From: a virus
Virus record (IMG/VR): IMGVR_UViG_3300035667_000007
Coordinates: 1-32,337 of that record
DNA length: 32,337 nt
Direction: 5' to 3' (one strand)
Part shown: positions 20,186 through 31,312 of the stretch, one piece after another
Layout of the letters: each line of letters starts with the position of its first letter
How positions within the stretch are numbered: the first letter of the stretch is position 1
Notes under the pieces: model-generated
Database searches by the model: none
The model's input: only the letters and a program-made list of their open reading frames with translations
Told to the model about the DNA's origin: nothing
Made by a program: the position numbers and the translations under genes

Positions 20186-20575
20186 ATGGCTGATTTCACG
20201 TTGAGTAATTCCGTTTATGACAAGCTCAAGAAGCTCACTCAAGTCGGACTTCCGGCCATTGGGTCGCTATATTTCGGATTATCCAATATTTGGAACTGGG
20301 CCGGCGCTGAAGAAGTTGTCGGAAGCCTTGCGCTCATTACTACTTTCCTAGGTCTTGTTTTGGGCGCCAGCAGCAAGAATTACGACTCCGATAAAGATAT
20401 TGCTGGAGATTTCGTTATCGACACCAATCCGGACGGCACAAAGGTCGTCAGGCTTGATTTGAACGATGAAGCAAGCAATGTGATCGAGCGAGACCGCATC
20501 ACATTCAAGGTGGTCGATACGGAAAAGCAATTCTGGAACGGTAACGAGGAAGCCTTCGATAACCTCGCAACTTAA
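20186..20575 (+). CDS. Holin, r1t-type
   Basis: The 129-residue protein has two predicted membrane helices, VGLPAIGSLYFGLSNIWNW (about 20-38) and EEVVGSLALITTFLGLVLGA (about 42-61), joined by a short loop. The pattern LKKLTQVGLPAIGSLYFGLS followed by a second helix and ASSKNY matches the phage r1t holin family. It permits endolysin to cross the membrane. The C-terminal tail of about 65 residues (DFVIDTNPDGTKVVRLDLND) is long for the family and looks like a small soluble domain. The gene ends the tail operon and overlaps the first promoter-like element, which starts within its last codons. The endolysin is about 17 kb upstream. Confidence 0.78.
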   Translation: MADFTLSNSVYDKLKKLTQVGLPAIGSLYFGLSNIWNWAGAEEVVGSLALITTFLGLVLGASSKNYDSDKDIAGDFVIDTNPDGTKVVRLDLNDEASNVIERDRITFKVVDTEKQFWNGNEEAFDNLAT

Positions 20576-20593
20576 ACATCCTTTATAATGAGA
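20565..20593 (+). promoter_or_regulatory. Promoter-like element, copy 1
   Basis: TCGCA at 20565-20569, 14 bases, then TATAATGAGA at 20584-20593. An ACAT block lies at spacer positions 7-10. The predicted start point near 20596 gives a 16-base leader to the ATG at 20612. There is no TTGACA-like box. The upstream half lies inside the holin gene's final codons. Confidence 0.7.
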
Positions 20594-20611
20594 ACATAGA
20601 GAGGATGTCTG

Positions 20612-20908
20612 ATGAAGAACATTTTCCAGAAGAGTCCGTCAAAGCTTGACGAACCCATCAACAAGGTTCTGCTGAGTATGGCAGACGTTGAACCAGGTTC
20701 TCCAGAGAGTGACAAGCTGACGAAGCAGTTGGAACGTCTGATGAAGTTGCAGGTTGAAGAGCCCCGCGATGGAATCAGTGCGGACACACTGGCCGTTGTG
20801 GCTGGCAATCTTCTGGGAATCCTGGTCATCGTCGCGTACGAGCAGAAGCACGTGATGGTTTCGAAGGGCCTTGGGCTGATCCTACGGAGTAAAAGCTCCA
20901 GCATGTAG
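20612..20908 (+). CDS. Small membrane protein
   Basis: The 98-residue protein has a charged N-terminal part with a helix (SDKLTKQLERLMKLQVEEPR) and one predicted membrane helix (TLAVVAGNLLGILVIVAYEQ, about 59-78) followed by KHVMVSKGLGLIL. The segment NLLGILVIVAYEQKHVMVSK recurs in small membrane proteins of many actinophages, from memory. ATG 20612 follows GAGAGGATG and is driven by promoter copy 1; a strong hairpin terminator follows. It stands as its own short transcription unit. No function is known to me. Confidence 0.7.
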   Translation: MKNIFQKSPSKLDEPINKVLLSMADVEPGSPESDKLTKQLERLMKLQVEEPRDGISADTLAVVAGNLLGILVIVAYEQKHVMVSKGLGLILRSKSSSM

Positions 20909-20922
20909 TCCCCGCTATGAAC

Positions 20923-20978
20923 GAAAACTCAGAAGCTGTGTGAGATGTAATAGAATCTTGCATGGCTTCTGAGTTTTC
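20923..20978 (+). terminator. Intrinsic terminator
   Basis: A perfect 14-bp stem pairs 20923-20936 (GAAAACTCAGAAGC) with 20965-20978 (GCTTCTGAGTTTTC), with a 28-base loop. The GC core (CTCAGAAGC) followed by TTTT is terminator-like. Its distal end overlaps promoter copy 2, so terminator and promoter share the TTTTCGC sequence. Confidence 0.65.
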
Positions 20979-21001
20979 GCGGGATTTACATGGGATCTAA
21001 T
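20977..21001 (+). promoter_or_regulatory. Promoter-like element, copy 2 (variant)
   Basis: TCGCG at 20977-20981, 14 bases containing TTTACAT, then TCTAAT at 20996-21001. The spacing matches the other four copies exactly, but the -10 box has one change and the following GAGA is replaced by Ts. It would start a transcript near 21008, upstream of the candidate small ORF at 21068. Confidence 0.5.
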
Positions 21002-21067
21002 TTTTTTTGCCAATTTACGAAAAAACACCCCTCTATATGGCTATGTGACGGCCTGTGAGAGGGTAAA

Positions 21068-21178
21068 ATGGGGTCTTATGGCCGAAATTATATGAAACGT
21101 CTTAGAACGCAAAATAGGGGTGTCTCAGACAAAATGGTCATTTTTAGGTCAAAAAAATCCCGGGGGGAGACTTTCTGA
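21068..21178 (+). CDS. Candidate small basic ORF
   Basis: ATG 21068 follows GAGAGGG at a four-base distance. The 36-residue product would be very basic (MGSYGRNYMKRLRTQNRGVS, ending in FRSKKSRGETF). It lies downstream of promoter copy 2 and within a longer inverted repeat. Support is weak: it is short, AT-rich, and overlaps potential RNA structure. It could equally be a non-coding RNA. I recognise no homologue. Confidence 0.25.
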   Translation: MGSYGRNYMKRLRTQNRGVSDKMVIFRSKKSRGETF

Positions 21179-21185
21179 CAACAAT

Positions 21186-21214
21186 TCGCATGTCTTACAC
21201 GGCATATAATGAGA
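21186..21214 (+). promoter_or_regulatory. Promoter-like element, copy 3
   Basis: TCGCA at 21186-21190, 14 bases with TTACAC, then TATAATGAGA from 21205. The predicted start point near 21217 gives a 19-base leader with AAGGAG before the ATG at 21236. No TTGACA-like box is present at the usual distance. Confidence 0.75.
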
Positions 21215-21235
21215 ACTAACCGCTAAGGAGCACGA

Positions 21236-21445
21236 ATGTTTAATCGACAGATCGAGATGCGCCTGGTGAAGAAGAGCAAGAAGAACGCCGACGAGGCGAG
21301 CACCCCCGAGGTTTCGGCCGAAGATATCAACAACATACTTGAAGATGTCATCACCGGAACCGGTAGGGTGATCGTCCAAGTCGCTGCGTCCCTCATGCTC
21401 GTCGACACCGTGCGCAAGATCGTCATCAACCGACTGTCCAAGTGA
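21236..21445 (+). CDS. Small membrane-associated protein
   Basis: The 69-residue protein has a basic N-terminus (MFNRQIEMRLVKKSKKNADE), an acidic middle and a hydrophobic helix (RVIVQVAASLMLVDTVRKIV, about 44-63). Similar short proteins starting MFNRQ occur in many actinophages next to small membrane proteins, from memory. ATG 21236 follows AAGGAG, with promoter copy 3 upstream and a hairpin terminator just after, so the gene is a separate unit. No function is known to me. Confidence 0.65.
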   Translation: MFNRQIEMRLVKKSKKNADEASTPEVSAEDINNILEDVITGTGRVIVQVAASLMLVDTVRKIVINRLSK

Positions 21446-21452
21446 AGTTCAG

Positions 21453-21479
21453 CCTAAGCCCTACATGGGTTTAGGTTTT
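21453..21479 (+). terminator. Intrinsic terminator
   Basis: A 9-bp stem pairs CCTAAGCCC (21453-21461) with GGGTTTAGG (21467-21475), one G-T pair included, loop TACAT, followed by TTTT. Its T tract runs straight into the TCGCA of promoter copy 4. Confidence 0.75.
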
Positions 21480-21507
21480 CGCAAAATATACATGGCCTAT
21501 AATGAGA
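21479..21507 (+). promoter_or_regulatory. Promoter-like element, copy 4
   Basis: TCGCA at 21479-21483, 14 bases with ATACAT, then TATAATGAGA from 21498. The start point is predicted near 21510, giving a leader of about 122 bases to the ATG at 21632, unlike the 16-19 base leaders of copies 1, 3 and 5. Confidence 0.75.
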
Positions 21508-21509
21508 GG

Positions 21510-21631
21510 GGGTGAGACACGAATCTGTAGGTGAAAGACCTACCCACCCGGTGCGGGAGCTGAACCGCAAAATCATAGTTTACGCTGGACTATGAACCTG
21601 AACCTCTTATTCCTTTTTTGTTGGAGGACAT
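21510..21631 (+). ncRNA. Structured 5' leader, possible regulatory RNA
   Basis: The 122-base leader can fold into several stems: GGGTG (21510-21514) with CACCC (21545-21549) enclosing the hairpin GTAGGT/ACCTAC (21527-21532 and 21538-21543); GCGG/CCGC (21553-21556 and 21565-21568); and TCATAGT/ACTATGA (21573-21579 and 21589-21595). A TTTTTT run at 21614-21619 precedes the ribosome binding site. It does not match a tRNA or a riboswitch that I recognise. A GTG at 21512 would open a 27-codon leaderless reading frame, a rival explanation. It may regulate the gene at 21632 and the SGNH hydrolase. Confidence 0.45.
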
Positions 21632-21958
21632 ATGACTGAAGATTACGAACTCATCAGTGCGGGCAATATCCAAAAAGGTGATGAGATTCGAATCGGCGAT
21701 AGCTGGCATACCTGTCGTGGTGTGACTCACCAAGGGATTGAAATCGTCATGGTGATCTTTGACGTCGTCCTCACAACGGGCATGGACAGTTTTATGGTTG
21801 TTCCCATCGATCTTATTATCCCAAAGAGGGTTTACAATGAAGCGAATTCTAATCCTGCTCGTGGTTTCACTGGGGTTTCTGTCGTGCGTGGCTTGCCAAC
21901 CGGAGACAATCGTTACCCCAATCCGGCAGACCCCGGGGACCATCCATCTCGAGGGTGA
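21632..21958 (+). CDS. Small protein, 3' end overlaps SGNH hydrolase gene
   Basis: ATG 21632 follows TTGGAGG. The 108-residue product has a plausible beta-rich N-terminal domain (residues 1-68: SAGNIQKGDEIRIGDSWHTC, IEIVMVIFDVVLTTGMDSFM) and a low-complexity Pro/Gly/Asn-rich C-terminus. The last 122 bases overlap the SGNH hydrolase gene in another frame. The N-terminal part looks real; the C-terminal 40 residues may only be a by-product of the overlap. No family is recognised. Its function may be regulatory or structural. Confidence 0.5.
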   Translation: MTEDYELISAGNIQKGDEIRIGDSWHTCRGVTHQGIEIVMVIFDVVLTTGMDSFMVVPIDLIIPKRVYNEANSNPARGFTGVSVVRGLPTGDNRYPNPADPGDHPSRG

Positions 21959-22475
21959 TTCCGTTACCTTTCTTACCTACTACAACTCCGGCATTCCCGG
22001 GTTCTGGACCTCTGGAGAGTTCGTCCCCGGTTCCAGCGCTGCTGTGAATCCCGCTGGCGAGCCTGCCATGAAGCGCGTTCCGCGCATGGTCGCTCAAGGC
22101 AAAGTCGATAAGCTCGTCTGGGCTCTTGGTCCGAACGATATTCGTATCGCTAAGGGTCGTTGGTCAACGCAGGACCAGTGGATCTGGTACGACGTTCTTG
22201 CGAACAAGGTTCCTTCCTCGAGCTGTATCGTCATCGCCAAGCCCTGGGTCATGCAATCGGGTTGGGCCACGTTCCCCAAGGCGGCTCTGGACGCGCTGAG
22301 CGCCTGGATTGATAACTTCGCCGCGAATCATCCCAATGTCGTGGTGGTGGATTGGAAGCCGATCTTCGAAGCGCATCCTGAATACGCGGCACCTGACGGA
22401 GTTCATATTTCCGGCCAAGCGGCTGCGGTGGCTAGGGACGCCATGTACCGTGAAGGGATTTCGCACTGTGGGTAA
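21837..22475 (+). CDS. Secreted SGNH/GDSL-type hydrolase
   Basis: ATG 21837 follows AAAGAGGG. The 212-residue protein begins with a signal sequence (MKRILILLVVSLGFLSCVAC); the cysteines at 17 and 20 give only a weak lipobox, so both lipoprotein and secreted forms are possible. SGNH blocks are present: EGDSVTF (Ser42, block I), ALGPNDIR (Asn100, block III) and PDGVHIS (Asp187, His190, block V). The block II Gly is not certain. SGNH enzymes are esterases or deacetylases acting on carbohydrates, lipids or acyl groups. Acting outside the cell, it could alter the host envelope. A longer in-frame start lies upstream without a ribosome binding site. Confidence 0.8.
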   Translation: MKRILILLVVSLGFLSCVACQPETIVTPIRQTPGTIHLEGDSVTFLTYYNSGIPGFWTSGEFVPGSSAAVNPAGEPAMKRVPRMVAQGKVDKLVWALGPNDIRIAKGRWSTQDQWIWYDVLANKVPSSSCIVIAKPWVMQSGWATFPKAALDALSAWIDNFAANHPNVVVVDWKPIFEAHPEYAAPDGVHISGQAAAVARDAMYREGISHCG

Positions 22476-22641
22476 GGACATTTATCGGCAGATTAGCGGA
22501 CCGAATTATCTTCCATACACCACCGCTCGTGAGGATCTTGCCAACATCATTGCGCAAGAGACGAGTGGGTTCATTGGCGCATTCCCTGAAGATGAGGATT
22601 ACGATCTCGCCGAGAAGTTTATCGAGGAGATCAATTCATGA
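22468..22641 (+). CDS. Small hypothetical protein
   Basis: GTG 22468 overlaps the end of the SGNH gene by 8 bases, with GAAGGGA upstream. The 57-residue product (GKDIYRQISGPNYLPYTTAR, LANIIAQETSGFIGAFPEDE, ending LAEKFIEEINS) is acidic and probably helical at its C-terminus. An in-frame extension further upstream would be buried in the hydrolase gene and is rejected. It shares the transcript of the hydrolase. No family is recognised. Confidence 0.55.
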   Translation: MGKDIYRQISGPNYLPYTTAREDLANIIAQETSGFIGAFPEDEDYDLAEKFIEEINS

Positions 22642-22730
22642 AATGGCTTAACCGCGCAATCATCGCGGTCATAGTATTTCTCATCCTTCTATATCTCTAT
22701 TTCATTCATCAAGTCCAATTCGGAGGCTGA
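22638..22730 (+). CDS. Tiny single-pass membrane protein
   Basis: The 30-residue product consists of a short basic start and one strong membrane helix (IIAVIVFLILLYLYFIHQVQ). ATG 22638 overlaps the preceding stop (ATGA), and the sequence AGGAG is seen at 22625-22629 (GAGGAGATCAATTCATG). The next gene begins one base after its stop. It fits the small-membrane-protein theme of the region. Function is unknown; an antiholin or regulator of an enzyme partner is speculation. Confidence 0.5.
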   Translation: MKWLNRAIIAVIVFLILLYLYFIHQVQFGG

Positions 22731-22731
22731 C

Positions 22732-22911
22732 ATGGCCGGTTTTGTTATTCTGCCCGACGACATGGATATTCAGTTTCATATCGACACTCCGGACGTTGCG
22801 GCACACATCCGAATGGCCACCAACGGCCGACGCGTTGTCGATCTTCAACTCGACGGTGACGAACTCGAGGCGGCTCTCTGGGGCCTCGAGAACTACAAGA
22901 AGGGAAAGTAA
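22732..22911 (+). CDS. Small acidic protein
   Basis: The 59-residue product (MAGFVILPDDMDIQFHIDTP, RMATNGRRVVDLQLDGDELE, ending LENYKKGK) has a likely mixed strand-helix fold. ATG 22732 follows CGGAGG inside the preceding gene. It is co-transcribed with the tiny genes either side. The overlapping reading frame of this stretch gives a longer basic peptide, but the one given here has the ribosome binding site and codon pattern. No family recognised. Confidence 0.5.
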   Translation: MAGFVILPDDMDIQFHIDTPDVAAHIRMATNGRRVVDLQLDGDELEAALWGLENYKKGK

Positions 22912-22913
22912 TC

Positions 22914-23018
22914 ATGAAGAAGTACAAGCTTCGTAATTTCCTATTCGACGCCTTCATGACCTGCATGACCGGTGGTTTCTGGCTGATCTGGATCTACTGC
23001 CGAGAGCACCGGAACTGA
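22914..23018 (+). CDS. Tiny membrane protein
   Basis: The 34-residue product has a basic start (MKKYKLRNFLFDAFMTCMTG) and a hydrophobic stretch (GGFWLIWIYCREHRN), a pattern I recall from short actinophage proteins with a TGGFWLIW-like core. ATG 22914 follows AAGGGAAAG, and its stop overlaps the next ATG as ATGA-like TGATG (23016-23020). It is likely membrane-inserted. Function unknown. Confidence 0.5.
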   Translation: MKKYKLRNFLFDAFMTCMTGGFWLIWIYCREHRN

Positions 23019-23716
23019 TGATCAAACGCTTCATCAAAGATAACTCATCCGTAATACTTTCGGTTGGCGCTTGTGTGGGCGTTATCTCGACTGCATATTT
23101 AGCTGGTCAAGCAGGGTACCGAACTGCGCACAAGCTTGAGAACGAAGATCCGACGATGGAGCTGAAGGAAAAGGCCAGAATTGTCTGGAGACTCTATATC
23201 CCTACCGGAGCCACTGCAGCAGCCACAATCATATTTGTTGCTGGAATCAAGCACGTGGATGGACGAAAGACACTGGCGGCTCAAACTGCGCTCGCCGTAT
23301 CACAACGAGCTTATGAAAGTTATCGCGCTGAGGTCATCGATGAACTCGGAGAACGTAAGGACCAGACGCTGCTGGCTAGGGTTGCGGAGAAGAAAGTAAA
23401 GGACAATCCTCCTTCGACTATCGTTGCTGTTTCTGGCTCTGGAAGAGTTCTCTGCTGTGAGTTGTTCACAAGTAGATATTTCCTCAGTGATATGGATGCT
23501 CTAAACAAAGCCGTCAATGAGATCAATGCCAAAATGCTCAGGCATGATTACGCGACTCTGGATGATTTCTACTACGAGATCAATCTAGAGAATACAATGG
23601 TGTCAGGGCAATCTGGTTGGAGTTCGGATAAATTGATGGCATTGGAGTTCTCTACAGTGCTCCGTGATGGAGTTCCTTGTCTTGCGTTTAGTTACAACTA
23701 CATCAAGTCATTCTAA
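23018..23716 (+). CDS. Membrane protein, DUF6353-like (paralogue 1)
   Basis: The 232-residue protein has two predicted membrane helices (SVILSVGACVGVISTAYLAG, about 10-29, and TGATAAATIIFVAGIKH, about 63-79), separated by a charged stretch. The C-terminal soluble domain is about 140 residues (ALAVSQRAYESYRAEVIDEL, then FLSDMDALNKAVNEINAKML). The pattern fits the DUF6353 family of phage membrane proteins, with the second copy at 25107. Shared landmarks are the SxAYxxYRxxVxxELGE segment and the FNxLF/LN-type positions. Function unknown. ATG overlaps the previous stop; the gene ends just before promoter copy 5. Confidence 0.6.
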   Translation: MIKRFIKDNSSVILSVGACVGVISTAYLAGQAGYRTAHKLENEDPTMELKEKARIVWRLYIPTGATAAATIIFVAGIKHVDGRKTLAAQTALAVSQRAYESYRAEVIDELGERKDQTLLARVAEKKVKDNPPSTIVAVSGSGRVLCCELFTSRYFLSDMDALNKAVNEINAKMLRHDYATLDDFYYEINLENTMVSGQSGWSSDKLMALEFSTVLRDGVPCLAFSYNYIKSF

Positions 23717-23745
23717 TCGCAAGATTTACACACCCTATAATGAGA
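23717..23745 (+). promoter_or_regulatory. Promoter-like element, copy 5
   Basis: TCGCA at 23717-23721, 14 bases with TTTACACA, then TATAATGAGA from 23736. The predicted start point near 23748 gives a 19-base leader with AAAGGA before the ATG at 23767. It begins at the first base after the stop codon of the DUF6353-like gene. Confidence 0.75.
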
Positions 23746-23766: not shown

Positions 23767-23937
23767 ATGGATGAGATCGATGAGAGCGCGGACGACACCG
23801 CAGTCGCAGAACTGCCGATTGGTCACCAGCTCGGGAAGATGCTGTTTGGCAGCATTGCTGCATTCGGCGCTAACAAGCTGGCCGATCGGGTCTACGACGG
23901 CGCCGTCCGCGCTTATCGAGCCCGTAAGTCCTCGTAA
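23767..23937 (+). CDS. Small hypothetical protein
   Basis: ATG 23767 follows GAAAGGAACT; an in-frame extension to 23740 would start inside the promoter. The 56-residue product is acidic at the start (MDEIDESADDTAVAELPIGH) and contains an Ala-rich helix (GKMLFGSIAAFGANKLADRV) and a basic end (AYRARKSS). It may be weakly membrane-associated. The gene is its own unit between promoter copy 5 and the terminator at 23951. Function unknown. Confidence 0.6.
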   Translation: MDEIDESADDTAVAELPIGHQLGKMLFGSIAAFGANKLADRVYDGAVRAYRARKSS

Positions 23938-26725: not shown

Positions 26726-27262
26726 ATGTCCGAGCCTCTTGAAAACCTATATTTCAATTGGCTCTGTTCGAAAGTCCTACAAGTTCGACGCCCGACGCCG
26801 TCATTATCTTTCGATACACTATTCAAGACGCTTCACAACCTAGAATTTGTATGGCTTTTGTCTGGAGATGATAATAGGGCCGAAGACGGAAAGGAACTGC
26901 GTAGAGAATTCTTCATCATGGGAAATATTCCTGACGATGAGGAGTGGCGTACGCAGATCCCTTGCTCCGTCTTTGAGATGCTCATTGGTTTTTCCAGGAG
27001 AGCCGATAAGAATTCAAGAACCAGCGCCAAAGAATGGTTCTGGGAATTCCTTAAGAATCTGAATTTGGCGGAAGCTAATGACGCGTCAGGTATCGAGCCA
27101 AACGAAATTCAAGACGTAATCGAAATGTTACTCTGGAGGACTTACGGACCAGATGGTGATGGTGGACTGTTCCCCTTGAGGGATCCACAGCGCGATCAAT
27201 CAGAGCAAGAGATTTGGCAGCAGTTCTGCGACTATCTTGTGGATCAAAATCGATTGCCTTAA
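26726..27262 (+). CDS. Conserved phage protein of unknown function
   Basis: The 178-residue protein (LYFNWLCSKVLQVRR, LFKTLHNLEFVWLLSGDDNR, IPCSVFEMLIGFSRRAD, SAKEWFWEFLKNLNL, LLWRTYGPDGDGGLFPLRD, EIWQQFCDYL) is soluble and largely helical. I recall the GPDGxGGLFPxxxx...IWxQxxxYL pattern as very common in gut phage genomes, with unknown function. It directly precedes the helicase-primase-polymerase gene (10-base gap). ATG 26726 is two bases after the previous stop. A partner role for the polymerase is an inference from constant neighbourhood. Confidence 0.6.
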   Translation: MSEPLENLYFNWLCSKVLQVRRPTPSLSFDTLFKTLHNLEFVWLLSGDDNRAEDGKELRREFFIMGNIPDDEEWRTQIPCSVFEMLIGFSRRADKNSRTSAKEWFWEFLKNLNLAEANDASGIEPNEIQDVIEMLLWRTYGPDGDGGLFPLRDPQRDQSEQEIWQQFCDYLVDQNRLP

Positions 27263-27272
27263 AGGGGAGGCC

Positions 27273-30200
27273 ATGGACTTCTATACAATTAGAACTAAAG
27301 AAGCCAAAGGCTTTCAGCAGGCTTACCCAGACTGGATTGTCGATTACTACGAGGACCTCATGGTCCGCGGTGGAGGATTCTACGCGGTCTGGGATGAAGA
27401 ACGTGGCACCTGGTCTACAAACGAGTACGATATTCAGCGGGTTGTGGACGCCGACTTGCTGGCATATGTCGAGGAAGCGGAGAAGAGGGGCGTTGTCATT
27501 GAACCTCTTCTCACAAGGAACTTCGGTACCGGCGCTTGGGAGAGCTTCAATCGTTATGTTCGTAACCTTCCCGACGCGTCGCACTTTCGTCAGCTGGACG
27601 AGACTCTAACCTTTGCTAATACGGAGGTGTCCAAGAAGGACTACGTCAGCAAGCGCCTCCCATATTCTTTGGAAGAAGGTAAGACTGATGCTTGGGACGA
27701 GCTTGTCAACGTTCTATATTCTCCAGCTGAACGCGACAAAATCGAATGGGCAATCGGAGCGGTTGTTTCAGGAGCTTCGAAATGGATCCAGAAGTTTCTG
27801 GTCTTCTACGGACCCCCGGGGTCTGGTAAATCTACTATCATCGCGATTATTGAACGACTCTTCGAAGGATACGTTGCAACTTTTGAGGCTAAGGCTCTCA
27901 CTAGCAATAATGGCACTTTTGCGATGGAGCCATTCGAGCACAATCCGTTGGTTGCTATCGAACATGATAGCGATCTATATCGGATTGAAACTAACACGCG
28001 TTTGAACTCCATTGTCGGGCACGATACCATGCTCGTCAATGCGAAGTATCGATCGCCTTTCACGATTCGGCCCAACTCGTTCTTGATGATTGGCACCAAC
28101 AAGCCAGTCAAGATCACGGACGCGAAGTCGGGCATAATGCGAAGGTTGATCGATGTTCATCCGACTGGCGTTAAGGTTTCTCCTGCGAGATATCATGTGC
28201 TTGTCGAGAACATTAAGTACGAGCTCGGCGCGATTGCTCTGAAATGCCTCAATCGTTACAACGAAATGGGCAAGTTCTACTACGAGAACTATGTCCCAAC
28301 GAAGATGATGATGCTGACGGACAGCTTCTACAACTTCATCGAAGCCAACTTTGACATCTTCAAGGCTGCTGATGGCATTCGGCTAAAGCAAATTTGGCAG
28401 ATGTACAAAGAATATTGTGAGGAGATGAACATTGTCAAACGACTTCAATACCACGAAGTTCGAGATGAACTGCACAGTTATTTCGGAGAATTTAAAGATC
28501 GTTGCTTCATCGATGATAAAGAAATGCGAAGCGTTTATCTCGGCTTCAAGGGTCTTCCTGGAGAAGGCCCGCCACCATTTGTTCCAGATTTGTCGTATGT
28601 TGTCGAATTGGGCGAATACGACTCAGCGTTCGATATCGCCTACCCAGGCCAATTGGCGCAGTACGCCAGGCCGGGCGGAGCGCCTGGAAAGAAGTGGGCT
28701 AAAGTATCGACGAGACTCGGAGAGCTGGATACCAAACGCCTGCACTACGTCAAGGTCCCCGAGGAATACATCGTCATAGACTTCGACTTGGTCGATGAAG
28801 ATGGCGAAAAAGACCTGGAGCGAAACATTGCTGCCGCTTCCAAACTACCCCCCACCTACGCGGAGGTTAGCAAAAGTGGCCGGGGCCTGCATCTTCATTA
28901 TATATTTACTGGTGATGTACACGATCTATCAAGCGTTCTGGATGTTGGCATCGAGATCAAGACCCTTCTGGGTGATTCTGCTCTTCGTCGTCAGCTTACT
29001 AGGTGCAACAATCTGGATATCTCTACTATAAGCGGAGGACTCCCCAGGAAAGAGAAGCCTGTGCTGGACACTCAAAGTATTAAAACCGAGAAGGGTCTAC
29101 GCGCCCTCATCGATCGTAATCTTCGGAAGGAAATTCATCCCGGCACAAAGTCGTCGATCGATTTCATCCATCATATCTTGGAGGAGGCGTACGATTCAGG
29201 ACTTCATTATGACGTTAGTGACTTGCGCCCAATTGTACTATCATTTGCAGCGCGAAGCACTAACCAATCCGTTGCTAGCATCCGTGTTGTACAGGATTGC
29301 AAATTTGCCAGCGAGTCATCAATGCCGGAAGCCGACGATGACTCCGGACCAATTGTCTTCTTCGACATTGAAGTATACCCGAACTTGTTTGTAGTCTGCT
29401 GGAAGAAGGAGAACGATAGCGTTGTGGTCAGGATGATCAATCCTACCTCAGCGGACGTCGAGCCTCTTCTTGAGCAGAAGCTGGTCGGATTCAACAACCG
29501 TCGATACGACAATCATATTCTGTACGCGGCGTATCTTGGGCATTCAAATGAGCAGCTGTTCGCGCTTAGTCAGAAGCTCATCGACAAGGACAACTTCACC
29601 GCGATGTTTGGTGAAGCGTACGGTCTGTCTTACGCAGACATCTATGACTTCAGTTCAAAGAAGCAGGGTCTCAAGAAGTTCCAGATCGAACTGGGCATCT
29701 TCCATGTCGAATTGGATCTTCCTTGGGATCGGCCGGTGGACGAAAGTCTATGGCCCAAAGTAGTTGACTATTGCGTTAATGACGTTATCTCAACGGAGGC
29801 TGTTTTCAATGCGCGTAAACAAGATTTCGTTGCTCGAGAGATACTTGCATCTCTCTCTGGTTTGTCGGTTAATCATACGACTCAGCAGCATACTGCTAGC
29901 ATCATCTTTGGCGACGATAGCAAGCCCCAATCAAAGTTTAGATACACTGATCTTAGTGTTGAGTTTCCTGGGTATGTATTTGACGGCGTCAAGAGTCATT
30001 ACCATGACGATGACCCCGGTGAAGGTGGATATGTTTACTCCGAACCTGGATACTATACCAACGTTGCGGTTTTGGACGTGGCGTCTATGCATCCAACATC
30101 GATCCGTGAGCTCAACCTCTTTGGACCCTATACTTCCAGGTTCAATGATCTCGTACGAGCACGCCTGGCAATCAAGCGTAAGGAATACGAAGCTGCCAGA

Positions 30201-31004
30201 TCTATGCTGGACGGTAAGCTCAGCGGATTTATTGGTGACTCTGAGGATGATGCTGCTGATCTGGCTTATGCGCTCAAGATCGTTGTCAACTCGGTCTACG
30301 GATTGACGAGTGCGAAGTTCAACAACAGTTTCAAAGATCCACGAAACATAGACAACATCGTCGCCAAGCGTGGCGCGTTGTTCATGATCGATCTGAAGAA
30401 CGCTGTTCAGGATCAGTGCGAACAAGTCATTCACATCAAGACAGACTCGATCAAGATTCCTAACGCTACTCAGGAAATTATCGATTTTGTAATCGAGTTC
30501 GGGAGGAAGTATGGGTACGAGTTCGAACACGAAGTTACGTACGAGAAGCTCTGCCTTATCAACGATGCGGTATATGTTGCTCGTAGCGATGGCAAGTGGA
30601 CAGCTGTTGGAGCGCAATTCCAACACCCGTACGTTTTTAAGGAACTGTTCTCGCATGAGCCCGTTGAGTTTAACGATCTCTGTGAAACCAAGAATGTGGT
30701 CAAGGGTCGTATCTACCTCGATATGTCCGGTAATGGGAACGTGTCCGAGATGCGACATGTGGGTCGAACCGGGAGTTTCATGCCAGTCAATTATGATGGC
30801 GGGACTCTTTGGAGAATAAGTGATGATGGTAAGAAGTACCACGTCACGGGGACCAGTGGATATTGCTGGCTCGACAGGGACCTTGCGTTGAATCGAGATC
30901 CCAACGGTGACCTCTTCACGGATATGGACTACTTCGAGAATTTGAAGAACGAGGCTATCGCCGCTATTGAGCGATATGTTCCGATCGACGAATTCGTTTC
31001 GTAA
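27273..31004 (+). CDS. SF3 helicase - AEP primase-like - family B DNA polymerase fusion
   Basis: ATG 27273 follows AAAGGGGAGG; the TTG 36 bases upstream lacks a good site. The 1243-residue protein contains a whole replication core. The SF3 helicase (about 100-400) has Walker A GPPGSGKST (180-188), Walker B-like LVAIEHDSD (226-234) and the motif C region FLMIGTNKPVKI near 270-280. The primase-like domain (about 480-620) has YIVIDFDLVD with Asp503 and Asp505 and SGRGLHLHYIF with His540. The polymerase has exonuclease motifs FDIEVYPN (Asp698, Glu700), FNNRRYDN (Asp746) and YCVNDV (Asp837), and polymerase motifs LDVASMHPTSI (Asp935), KIVVNSVYG (Lys1002, Asn1006) and KTDS (Asp1058). The motif C lacks the usual YGDTDS. 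Similar fusions occur in gut phages, from memory. Confidence 0.85.
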   Translation: MDFYTIRTKEAKGFQQAYPDWIVDYYEDLMVRGGGFYAVWDEERGTWSTNEYDIQRVVDADLLAYVEEAEKRGVVIEPLLTRNFGTGAWESFNRYVRNLPDASHFRQLDETLTFANTEVSKKDYVSKRLPYSLEEGKTDAWDELVNVLYSPAERDKIEWAIGAVVSGASKWIQKFLVFYGPPGSGKSTIIAIIERLFEGYVATFEAKALTSNNGTFAMEPFEHNPLVAIEHDSDLYRIETNTRLNSIVGHDTMLVNAKYRSPFTIRPNSFLMIGTNKPVKITDAKSGIMRRLIDVHPTGVKVSPARYHVLVENIKYELGAIALKCLNRYNEMGKFYYENYVPTKMMMLTDSFYNFIEANFDIFKAADGIRLKQIWQMYKEYCEEMNIVKRLQYHEVRDELHSYFGEFKDRCFIDDKEMRSVYLGFKGLPGEGPPPFVPDLSYVVELGEYDSAFDIAYPGQLAQYARPGGAPGKKWAKVSTRLGELDTKRLHYVKVPEEYIVIDFDLVDEDGEKDLERNIAAASKLPPTYAEVSKSGRGLHLHYIFTGDVHDLSSVLDVGIEIKTLLGDSALRRQLTRCNNLDISTISGGLPRKEKPVLDTQSIKTEKGLRALIDRNLRKEIHPGTKSSIDFIHHILEEAYDSGLHYDVSDLRPIVLSFAARSTNQSVASIRVVQDCKFASESSMPEADDDSGPIVFFDIEVYPNLFVVCWKKENDSVVVRMINPTSADVEPLLEQKLVGFNNRRYDNHILYAAYLGHSNEQLFALSQKLIDKDNFTAMFGEAYGLSYADIYDFSSKKQGLKKFQIELGIFHVELDLPWDRPVDESLWPKVVDYCVNDVISTEAVFNARKQDFVAREILASLSGLSVNHTTQQHTASIIFGDDSKPQSKFRYTDLSVEFPGYVFDGVKSHYHDDDPGEGGYVYSEPGYYTNVAVLDVASMHPTSIRELNLFGPYTSRFNDLVRARLAIKRKEYEAARSMLDGKLSGFIGDSEDDAADLAYALKIVVNSVYGLTSAKFNNSFKDPRNIDNIVAKRGALFMIDLKNAVQDQCEQVIHIKTDSIKIPNATQEIIDFVIEFGRKYGYEFEHEVTYEKLCLINDAVYVARSDGKWTAVGAQFQHPYVFKELFSHEPVEFNDLCETKNVVKGRIYLDMSGNGNVSEMRHVGRTGSFMPVNYDGGTLWRISDDGKKYHVTGTSGYCWLDRDLALNRDPNGDLFTDMDYFENLKNEAIAAIERYVPIDEFVS

Positions 31005-31018
31005 TCGAGAGAGGAGCG

Positions 31019-31312
31019 ATGAGATCCTCAGAGATTCAAATCGGTTCGCAATATAAAGTGCGTCGTTATAATAAACGTGTTGCTACCTTAACCACACAAG
31101 GCATAGGTTTCGATGCGTTCTGGTCATACTGGATAGCTACTGTCGTAGGTCGCGAAGGGCGTCGTTACGTGATCGAATGGTCCGAGGCGGCGCCGCTTCA
31201 CGATCTCAAAACCCAGATGGCCCAGAATTCGGGTCCTTGTAAGATGGAATGGACGACGCAGATTATTAGAGACATAGTCACTCCCGCGCAGATAATCGAA
31301 AAGGTTGGTTAA
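31019..31312 (+). CDS. Hypothetical protein
   Basis: ATG 31019 follows GAGAGGAGC. The 97-residue product is basic with a likely small beta-barrel core (IQIGSQYKVRRYNKRVATLT, WIATVVGREGRRYVIEWSEA) and a C-terminal helix (TPAQIIEKVG). The hydrophobic and basic alternation is compatible with a nucleic acid-binding fold such as OB or SH3, but there is no diagnostic motif. It starts 14 bases after the polymerase gene and is probably part of the same operon, as is the next gene two bases on. Confidence 0.6.
   Translation: MRSSEIQIGSQYKVRRYNKRVATLTTQGIGFDAFWSYWIATVVGREGRRYVIEWSEAAPLHDLKTQMAQNSGPCKMEWTTQIIRDIVTPAQIIEKVG

Follow-up and report, generated by a model that had tools for sequence, protein, structure and literature searches.

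A fixed-geometry promoter-like element in a phage lineage is probably read by the phages' own single-chain RNA polymerase

The window examined here, the whole of a 32-kb virus fragment (32,337 nucleotides), contains five + strand copies of an element in which a TCGCR box and a TATAAT-type hexamer lie a fixed distance apart, with no accompanying -35 sequence. What reads such an element? The original prediction took the copies to be promoters recognized in a phage-specific manner, and offered three readings: a phage activator of host RNA polymerase, a spacer that serves as the operator of a repressor, or an atypical preference of sigma. The promoter elements, their fixed geometry, the missing -35 and the phage-specific recognition all hold up. 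On the three proposed modes of reading, comparison points in another direction: the element tracks a phage RNA polymerase (RNAP) across host phyla, its hexamer departs from the consensus for sigma-A, and the bases GAGA beside TATAAT appear to be transcribed.

The repeated family in the window is real. The pattern TCGCR-N6-ACAY-N4-TATAATGAGA occurs exactly four times, at 20565, 21186, 21479 and 23717, and never across 100 dinucleotide-preserving shuffles (0 expected); the fifth site, at 20977, fits except for its TCTAAT hexamer and the loss of GAGA. The best TTGACA match at these sites is 3/6 at spacers 16-18, as the claim of no -35 implies. The TG of an extended -10 is absent from all of them, and a sigma-70 scan returns fewer hits than in shuffles. 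The best sigma-70-like match on the + strand of the scanned part, TTCGCA-N16-TATAAT at 31045-31072, lies inside a 97-aa ORF (31019-31312), has the wrong spacing and falls outside the family. Rfam gathering and tRNA searches of the window gave no matches.

The features around the copies all lie on the + strand. Copy 1 (TCGCA-N6-ACAT-N4-TATAAT-GAGA, 20565..20593, inferred start ~20590) precedes a 98-aa ORF (20612..20908), and seven other lineage members carry relatives of this ORF. A terminator-like hairpin, read from the sequence as CTCAGAAGC...GCTTCTGAG plus TTTT (20928..20977), abuts the degenerate copy 2 (TCGCG-N6-ACAT-N4-TCTAAT, 20977..21001), which is probably a decayed or inactive promoter. 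The ~180 nt at 21000-21185 are non-coding, include a stretch, CCCGGGGGGAGACTTTCTGACAACAATTCGC, that resembles the corresponding region of Zeina (L008 ~3090) and ReqiPoco6 (L009 ~2670), and are possibly an origin or other cis element. Copy 3 (21186..21214, inferred start ~21211) precedes a 69-aa ORF (21236..21445) and then a predicted terminator, CCTAAGCCC-TACAT-GGGTTTAGG-TTTT (21453..21479), whose final T doubles as the T of TCGCA in copy 4 (21479..21507, inferred start ~21504). Copy 4 leads into a structured non-coding RNA, which it is predicted to drive, and not directly into a gene; a 108-aa ORF (21632..21958) lies 3' of this RNA. Copy 5 (23717..23745, inferred start ~23742) precedes a 56-aa ORF (23767..23937) with its ATG at 23767 and a 25-nt leader. 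Three sites thus lead genes, as originally described, but the 16-19 nt once given for their leaders assumed a start 6 nt downstream of the hexamer, which the RNA evidence below contradicts; the distances from hexamer end to start codon are 22, 25 and 25 nt.

The terminase, portal, capsid, tape-measure and DNA primase/polymerase of the window match those of Gordonia cluster DJ and Streptomyces phages, as well as phages of Arthrobacter, Curtobacterium, Microbacterium, Lactococcus and Faecalibacterium, with a largely common gene order. The fragment ends ahead of the expected RNAP gene. It is assigned to the RNAP-encoding lineage because the two closest matches to its DNA primase/polymerase (27237..31004, + strand; 67-70% identical) sit in RNAP-encoding contigs.

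The search of related phages that the original prediction called for recovers ~5-33 copies each in Gordonia, Rhodococcus, Streptomyces, Arthrobacter and Microbacterium phages, with the maximum of 33 in Arthrobacter phage Paella. Judged by sequence, the element is a lineage-wide class of putative promoter. It recurs in arrays of small genes, which in actinophages separate the tail genes from those for replication. The logo of 237 distinct exact sites reads TCGCA-R-RWWWW-ACA-Y-G-N-C-Y-TATAAT-GAGA-CCCC, and the columns upstream of it carry at most 0.2 bit. Among fetched loci with at least one exact match (the loci being selected by the pattern, their other sites not), the 14-nt spacer between TCGCR and TATAAT occurs 417 times and every other spacer from 8 to 23 only 0-2 times.

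The surroundings are as regular as the element. At 502 distinct relaxed sites, a Shine-Dalgarno sequence and start codon lie 12-75 nt downstream in 73% (19% at random positions), with a median leader distance of 26 nt, and a terminator-like hairpin lies no more than 70 nt upstream in 46% (8% at random positions). These enrichments define the unit as terminator, promoter, short leader and one small gene. Some promoters are followed by a structured small RNA, and a tRNA lies behind the promoter in ReqiPoco6 and apparently also in Lactococcus P078. At one locus (L243:11441-11490) a hairpin and T-run fall within ~45 nt of the promoter, and the RNA would therefore be only ~40 nt. At four others (L218, L348, L342, L346) near-identical terminator hairpins (e.g. 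GGAGAAATCTGCGGCTC) are repeated several times per phage, behind small genes. In 257 Gb of bacterial and archaeal genomes, 14 stretches match where ~7.5 are expected by chance (18 specified bases), and one of the 14, in which five copies occur, resembles a phage contig. The element is no host signal or regulon; its host matches are at chance level.

The RNA genes bear on the start site. Small-RNA genes have a 5' end that pairs with their terminator. When stems are chosen solely on bases from the fifth after TATAAT onward, nine strong sites are found (1.3 expected), and GAGA is paired in 32/36 cells at these nine; a wider stem scan gives 25 strong stems, nearly all taking in GAGA. Because of this pairing GAGA appears to be transcribed, which would place the start at or before its G and not 6-7 bases downstream. 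At sigma-A promoters transcription begins 6-7 nt downstream of the -10, and the GAGA-terminator pairing argues indirectly against a start 6-8 nt after the hexamer. The RNA of the window (21504..21620, + strand) is supported by a fold z of -2.9, homologues and covariation. Its 5' GAGAGG pairs with a CCUCUU adjoining its terminator, its core GAGACRCGAAUG is kept in phages of Gordonia, Rhodococcus and Arthrobacter as well as in environmental contigs, and its basal helix carries changes on both sides in 4/5 pairs; it has no Rfam match.

A candidate reader is found in the motif-bearing phages themselves. These end with a ~900-aa gene, annotated as an HTH protein or RNA-dependent RNA polymerase, whose product belongs to PHROG 4291 (E = 0). 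The catalytic DxDGD aspartates are present within GADFDGD, invariant in alignments of 4, 35 and 9 sequences, and HTH or sigma-region-4-like domains lie near both ends. An AlphaFold2 model (pLDDT 78.7) has the two-barrel core fold. Over residues ~226-701 it matches QDE-1 (Z 18, 360 residues) and two RNAPs of Thermus phages, P74 gp62 and P32 gp64 (Z 13.8). No homology to YonO is detected by sequence (hhalign probability 1.5%), and the protein is therefore placed in a separate family of single-chain two-barrel RNAPs. In ~28/37 loci an element of the same geometry, often with AGAAGG replacing GAGA, lies 858-954 nt upstream of the polymerase gene, ahead of a VRR-Nuc/Cas4/RNAP operon. This variant promoter ~0.9 kb upstream suggests self-activation. 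A possible link between the TCGC box and the recognition helix of the N-terminal HTH (ESSVR vs PGSVT in P078) was weighed and set aside: it involves one change only, and Bing departs from it.

Element and polymerase occur together. Among IMG/VR contigs picked by DNA pattern alone, 27/28 encode the polymerase; the remaining contig is not a counter-example, as it ends after helicase/HNH genes, before the expected gene. The polymerase is likewise encoded in 15/15 named phages tested, across clusters, and INPHARED tallies of motif and polymerase by genus are 55/55 for Gordonia, 54/54 for Streptomyces, 4/4 for Rhodococcus and 4/4 for Microbacterium, from BLAST with an actinophage query that misses divergent Arthrobacter, Curtobacterium and Firmicutes polymerases. 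Every near-complete carrier tested encodes a PHROG 4291 polymerase. Because the DNA polymerase co-occurs with the element equally well (27/28), and all carriers form one phage lineage with other core genes in common, co-occurrence alone cannot single out the RNA polymerase.

The reverse comparison starts from the polymerase. Of 18 contigs chosen on polymerase homology alone, 17 carry the geometry (CGCR-N6-ACA-N5-TATAAT, at most one mismatch), with 82 sites on the polymerase strand, one on the opposite strand and five control matches. Two phages besides these 18 were likewise taken for their polymerase: Lactococcus P078 has eight copies of a TTTTA-like-N6-ACAT-N4-TATAAT-GARA form, and Faecalibacterium FP_oengus a 12-member repeat family, typically RCGCG-N6-ACAG-N4-CTTTAT-GGA. 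De novo motif discovery without the consensus returns the same geometry in several contigs, with hexamers TATTAT, CTTAAT, TGTTAT and CTTTAT and, in some motifs, TTTTA replacing TCGCA; in other polymerase contigs the motifs found were terminators or ribosome-binding sites, and G060 yielded none. The geometry thus follows the RNAP across phages of Actinobacteria, Lactococcus and Faecalibacterium. Constant among polymerase carriers are CGC, CA, the spacings and the final T before G. Position 2 of the hexamer, in contrast, is not always the A that sigma-A requires. The -10 signature TAnnnT is found in the window and not in family members with CTTTAT, CTTAAT or TGTTAT. This drift argues that sigma-A is not the common reader.

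Geometry, co-occurrence, hexamer drift and GAGA transcription all come from sequence comparison; the elements are probably promoters of the phage-encoded single-chain two-barrel RNA polymerase (PHROG 4291, ~900 aa). One alternative is that host RNAP-sigma-A uses TATAAT as its -10, aided by a phage activator on TCGCR/ACAY, much as T4 MotA acts near -30. Such an arrangement would account for a perfect sigma-A hexamer in actinophages and Lactococcus phages and for a rigid upstream box in place of a -35, and other unknown core proteins, including the 82-aa protein right after the polymerase, do co-occur with the element. It is nonetheless unlikely, as CTTTAT, CTTAAT and TGTTAT in some members lose the conserved -10 A, transcription of GAGA leaves no discriminator for sigma-A, and no sigma or activator-like gene is annotated in the genomes examined. 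Host or dual use of TATAAT may occur in actinophages and Lactococcus phages. Actinobacterial sigma-A promoters often lack a -35, and the copies could be promoters of this kind, silenced or timed by a phage repressor with TCGCR-N6-ACAY as its operator. Repeated operators do occur in other actinophages, as the stoperators of cluster CA (PMC13313380). Against this, the element ends in every case in a promoter-like hexamer, with a single spacing, the carriers appear mostly lytic, no conserved repressor was seen, and the hexamer drift and the start-site argument from GAGA apply here too, making this reading very improbable.

A variant compatible with the preferred explanation is that the polymerase needs another phage-encoded factor to read the promoter. 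In all genomes compared, the gene immediately downstream of the polymerase encodes a conserved protein of 82-89 aa (e.g. L131:25965-26213; E 1e-12 to 1e-26), with orthologues also in Lactococcus and Faecalibacterium phages, and the two-barrel RNAPs of jumbo phages have a separate promoter-recognition subunit (PMC7618050). Set against this, the polymerase already has HTH domains at both ends, and no recognised domain was found in the small protein; the involvement of such a factor is a tentative possibility.

If the polymerase reads the element, it probably recognizes, possibly through its terminal HTH domains, TCGCR (-25 to -21) and ACAY (-14 to -11); these two boxes are 11 bp apart and face the same side of the helix. 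It would then melt the A/T-rich hexamer (-6 to -1), and transcription would begin at the first G of GAGA or beside it. We infer that the polymerase itself makes these contacts, and infer likewise the domains that make them and their timing in infection. Each promoter, following a terminator, would drive one small gene, tRNA or small RNA, so that each unit would be transcribed on its own. The polymerase may activate itself via the variant promoter ahead of its own operon; the first supply could be virion-borne, come from host RNAP on TATAAT or arise by read-through. The full account is of a single-chain two-barrel RNAP that, with built-in sigma-region-4-like HTHs, reads a rigid 29-bp bipartite promoter without sigma and starts immediately downstream of the hexamer. 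It would switch on its own operon and transcribe arrays of as many as ~30 one-gene accessory units, in phages whose hosts span at least two bacterial phyla. As a whole, this account has about an even chance of being correct.

Promoters of such a kind are known from other phage RNAPs, and for the PHROG 4291 family no earlier description was found. The element itself has been seen in close relatives: in Gordonia cluster DJ phages a MEME-found motif of 50 bp (Vardy) or 43 bases (Conley), containing TATAAT and located in central intergenic gaps, was read as a sigma-70 -10 (PMC9671010, PMC10868162). Those papers drew no connection to a phage polymerase, to other clusters, to phages of Firmicutes or to RNA genes, and a literature search found no earlier report linking motif and polymerase. 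The closest phage structures to the polymerase model (Z 13.8) are the virion and non-virion RNAPs of P23-45, single-chain two-barrel enzymes for which ONT-cappable-seq has mapped distinct promoter motifs (PMC10770324). They form a different polymerase family, and their motifs, one AT-rich and one weakly conserved and GC-rich, are unlike the present element. YonO of SPbeta, a single-chain two-barrel phage RNAP with DNA-dependent activity, shares the fold class only, with no detectable sequence homology; its authors left its promoter and its need for other factors open (PMC5467207). No convincing element was seen upstream of SPbeta yonK, the region of the mapped YonO start (chromosome position 2225998, for which coordinate conversion is unsafe). 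The nearest start-site analogue is the two-barrel phiKZ nvRNAP, whose late promoters, (-3)TATG(+1), end at the start-site G as TAT/AAT then G does here; that enzyme is multisubunit, and its very short consensus lacks upstream boxes, unlike the present element (PMC7618050). Rigid, spacer-invariant promoters with TATA by a purine-rich start, as here, are also typical of T7-type polymerases. In these, TATA lies next to the start as TATA|GGGAGA; the T7 polymerase fold is unrelated to that of PHROG 4291, and the likeness is one of analogy only.

These results give an uncharacterised polymerase family a directly testable candidate promoter. YonO was the first such single-chain phage polymerase shown to work, and the gap over its promoter shows the use of a polymerase-promoter pair. 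The present phage group, which is large and cultivable, pairs a polymerase with a rigidly conserved matching candidate promoter in hundreds of natural variants, suited to in vitro tests, and the two together would make a compact orthogonal transcription system. In phage genomes, the element provides a DNA signature by which arrays of small accessory genes, and of small RNAs, can be recognized.
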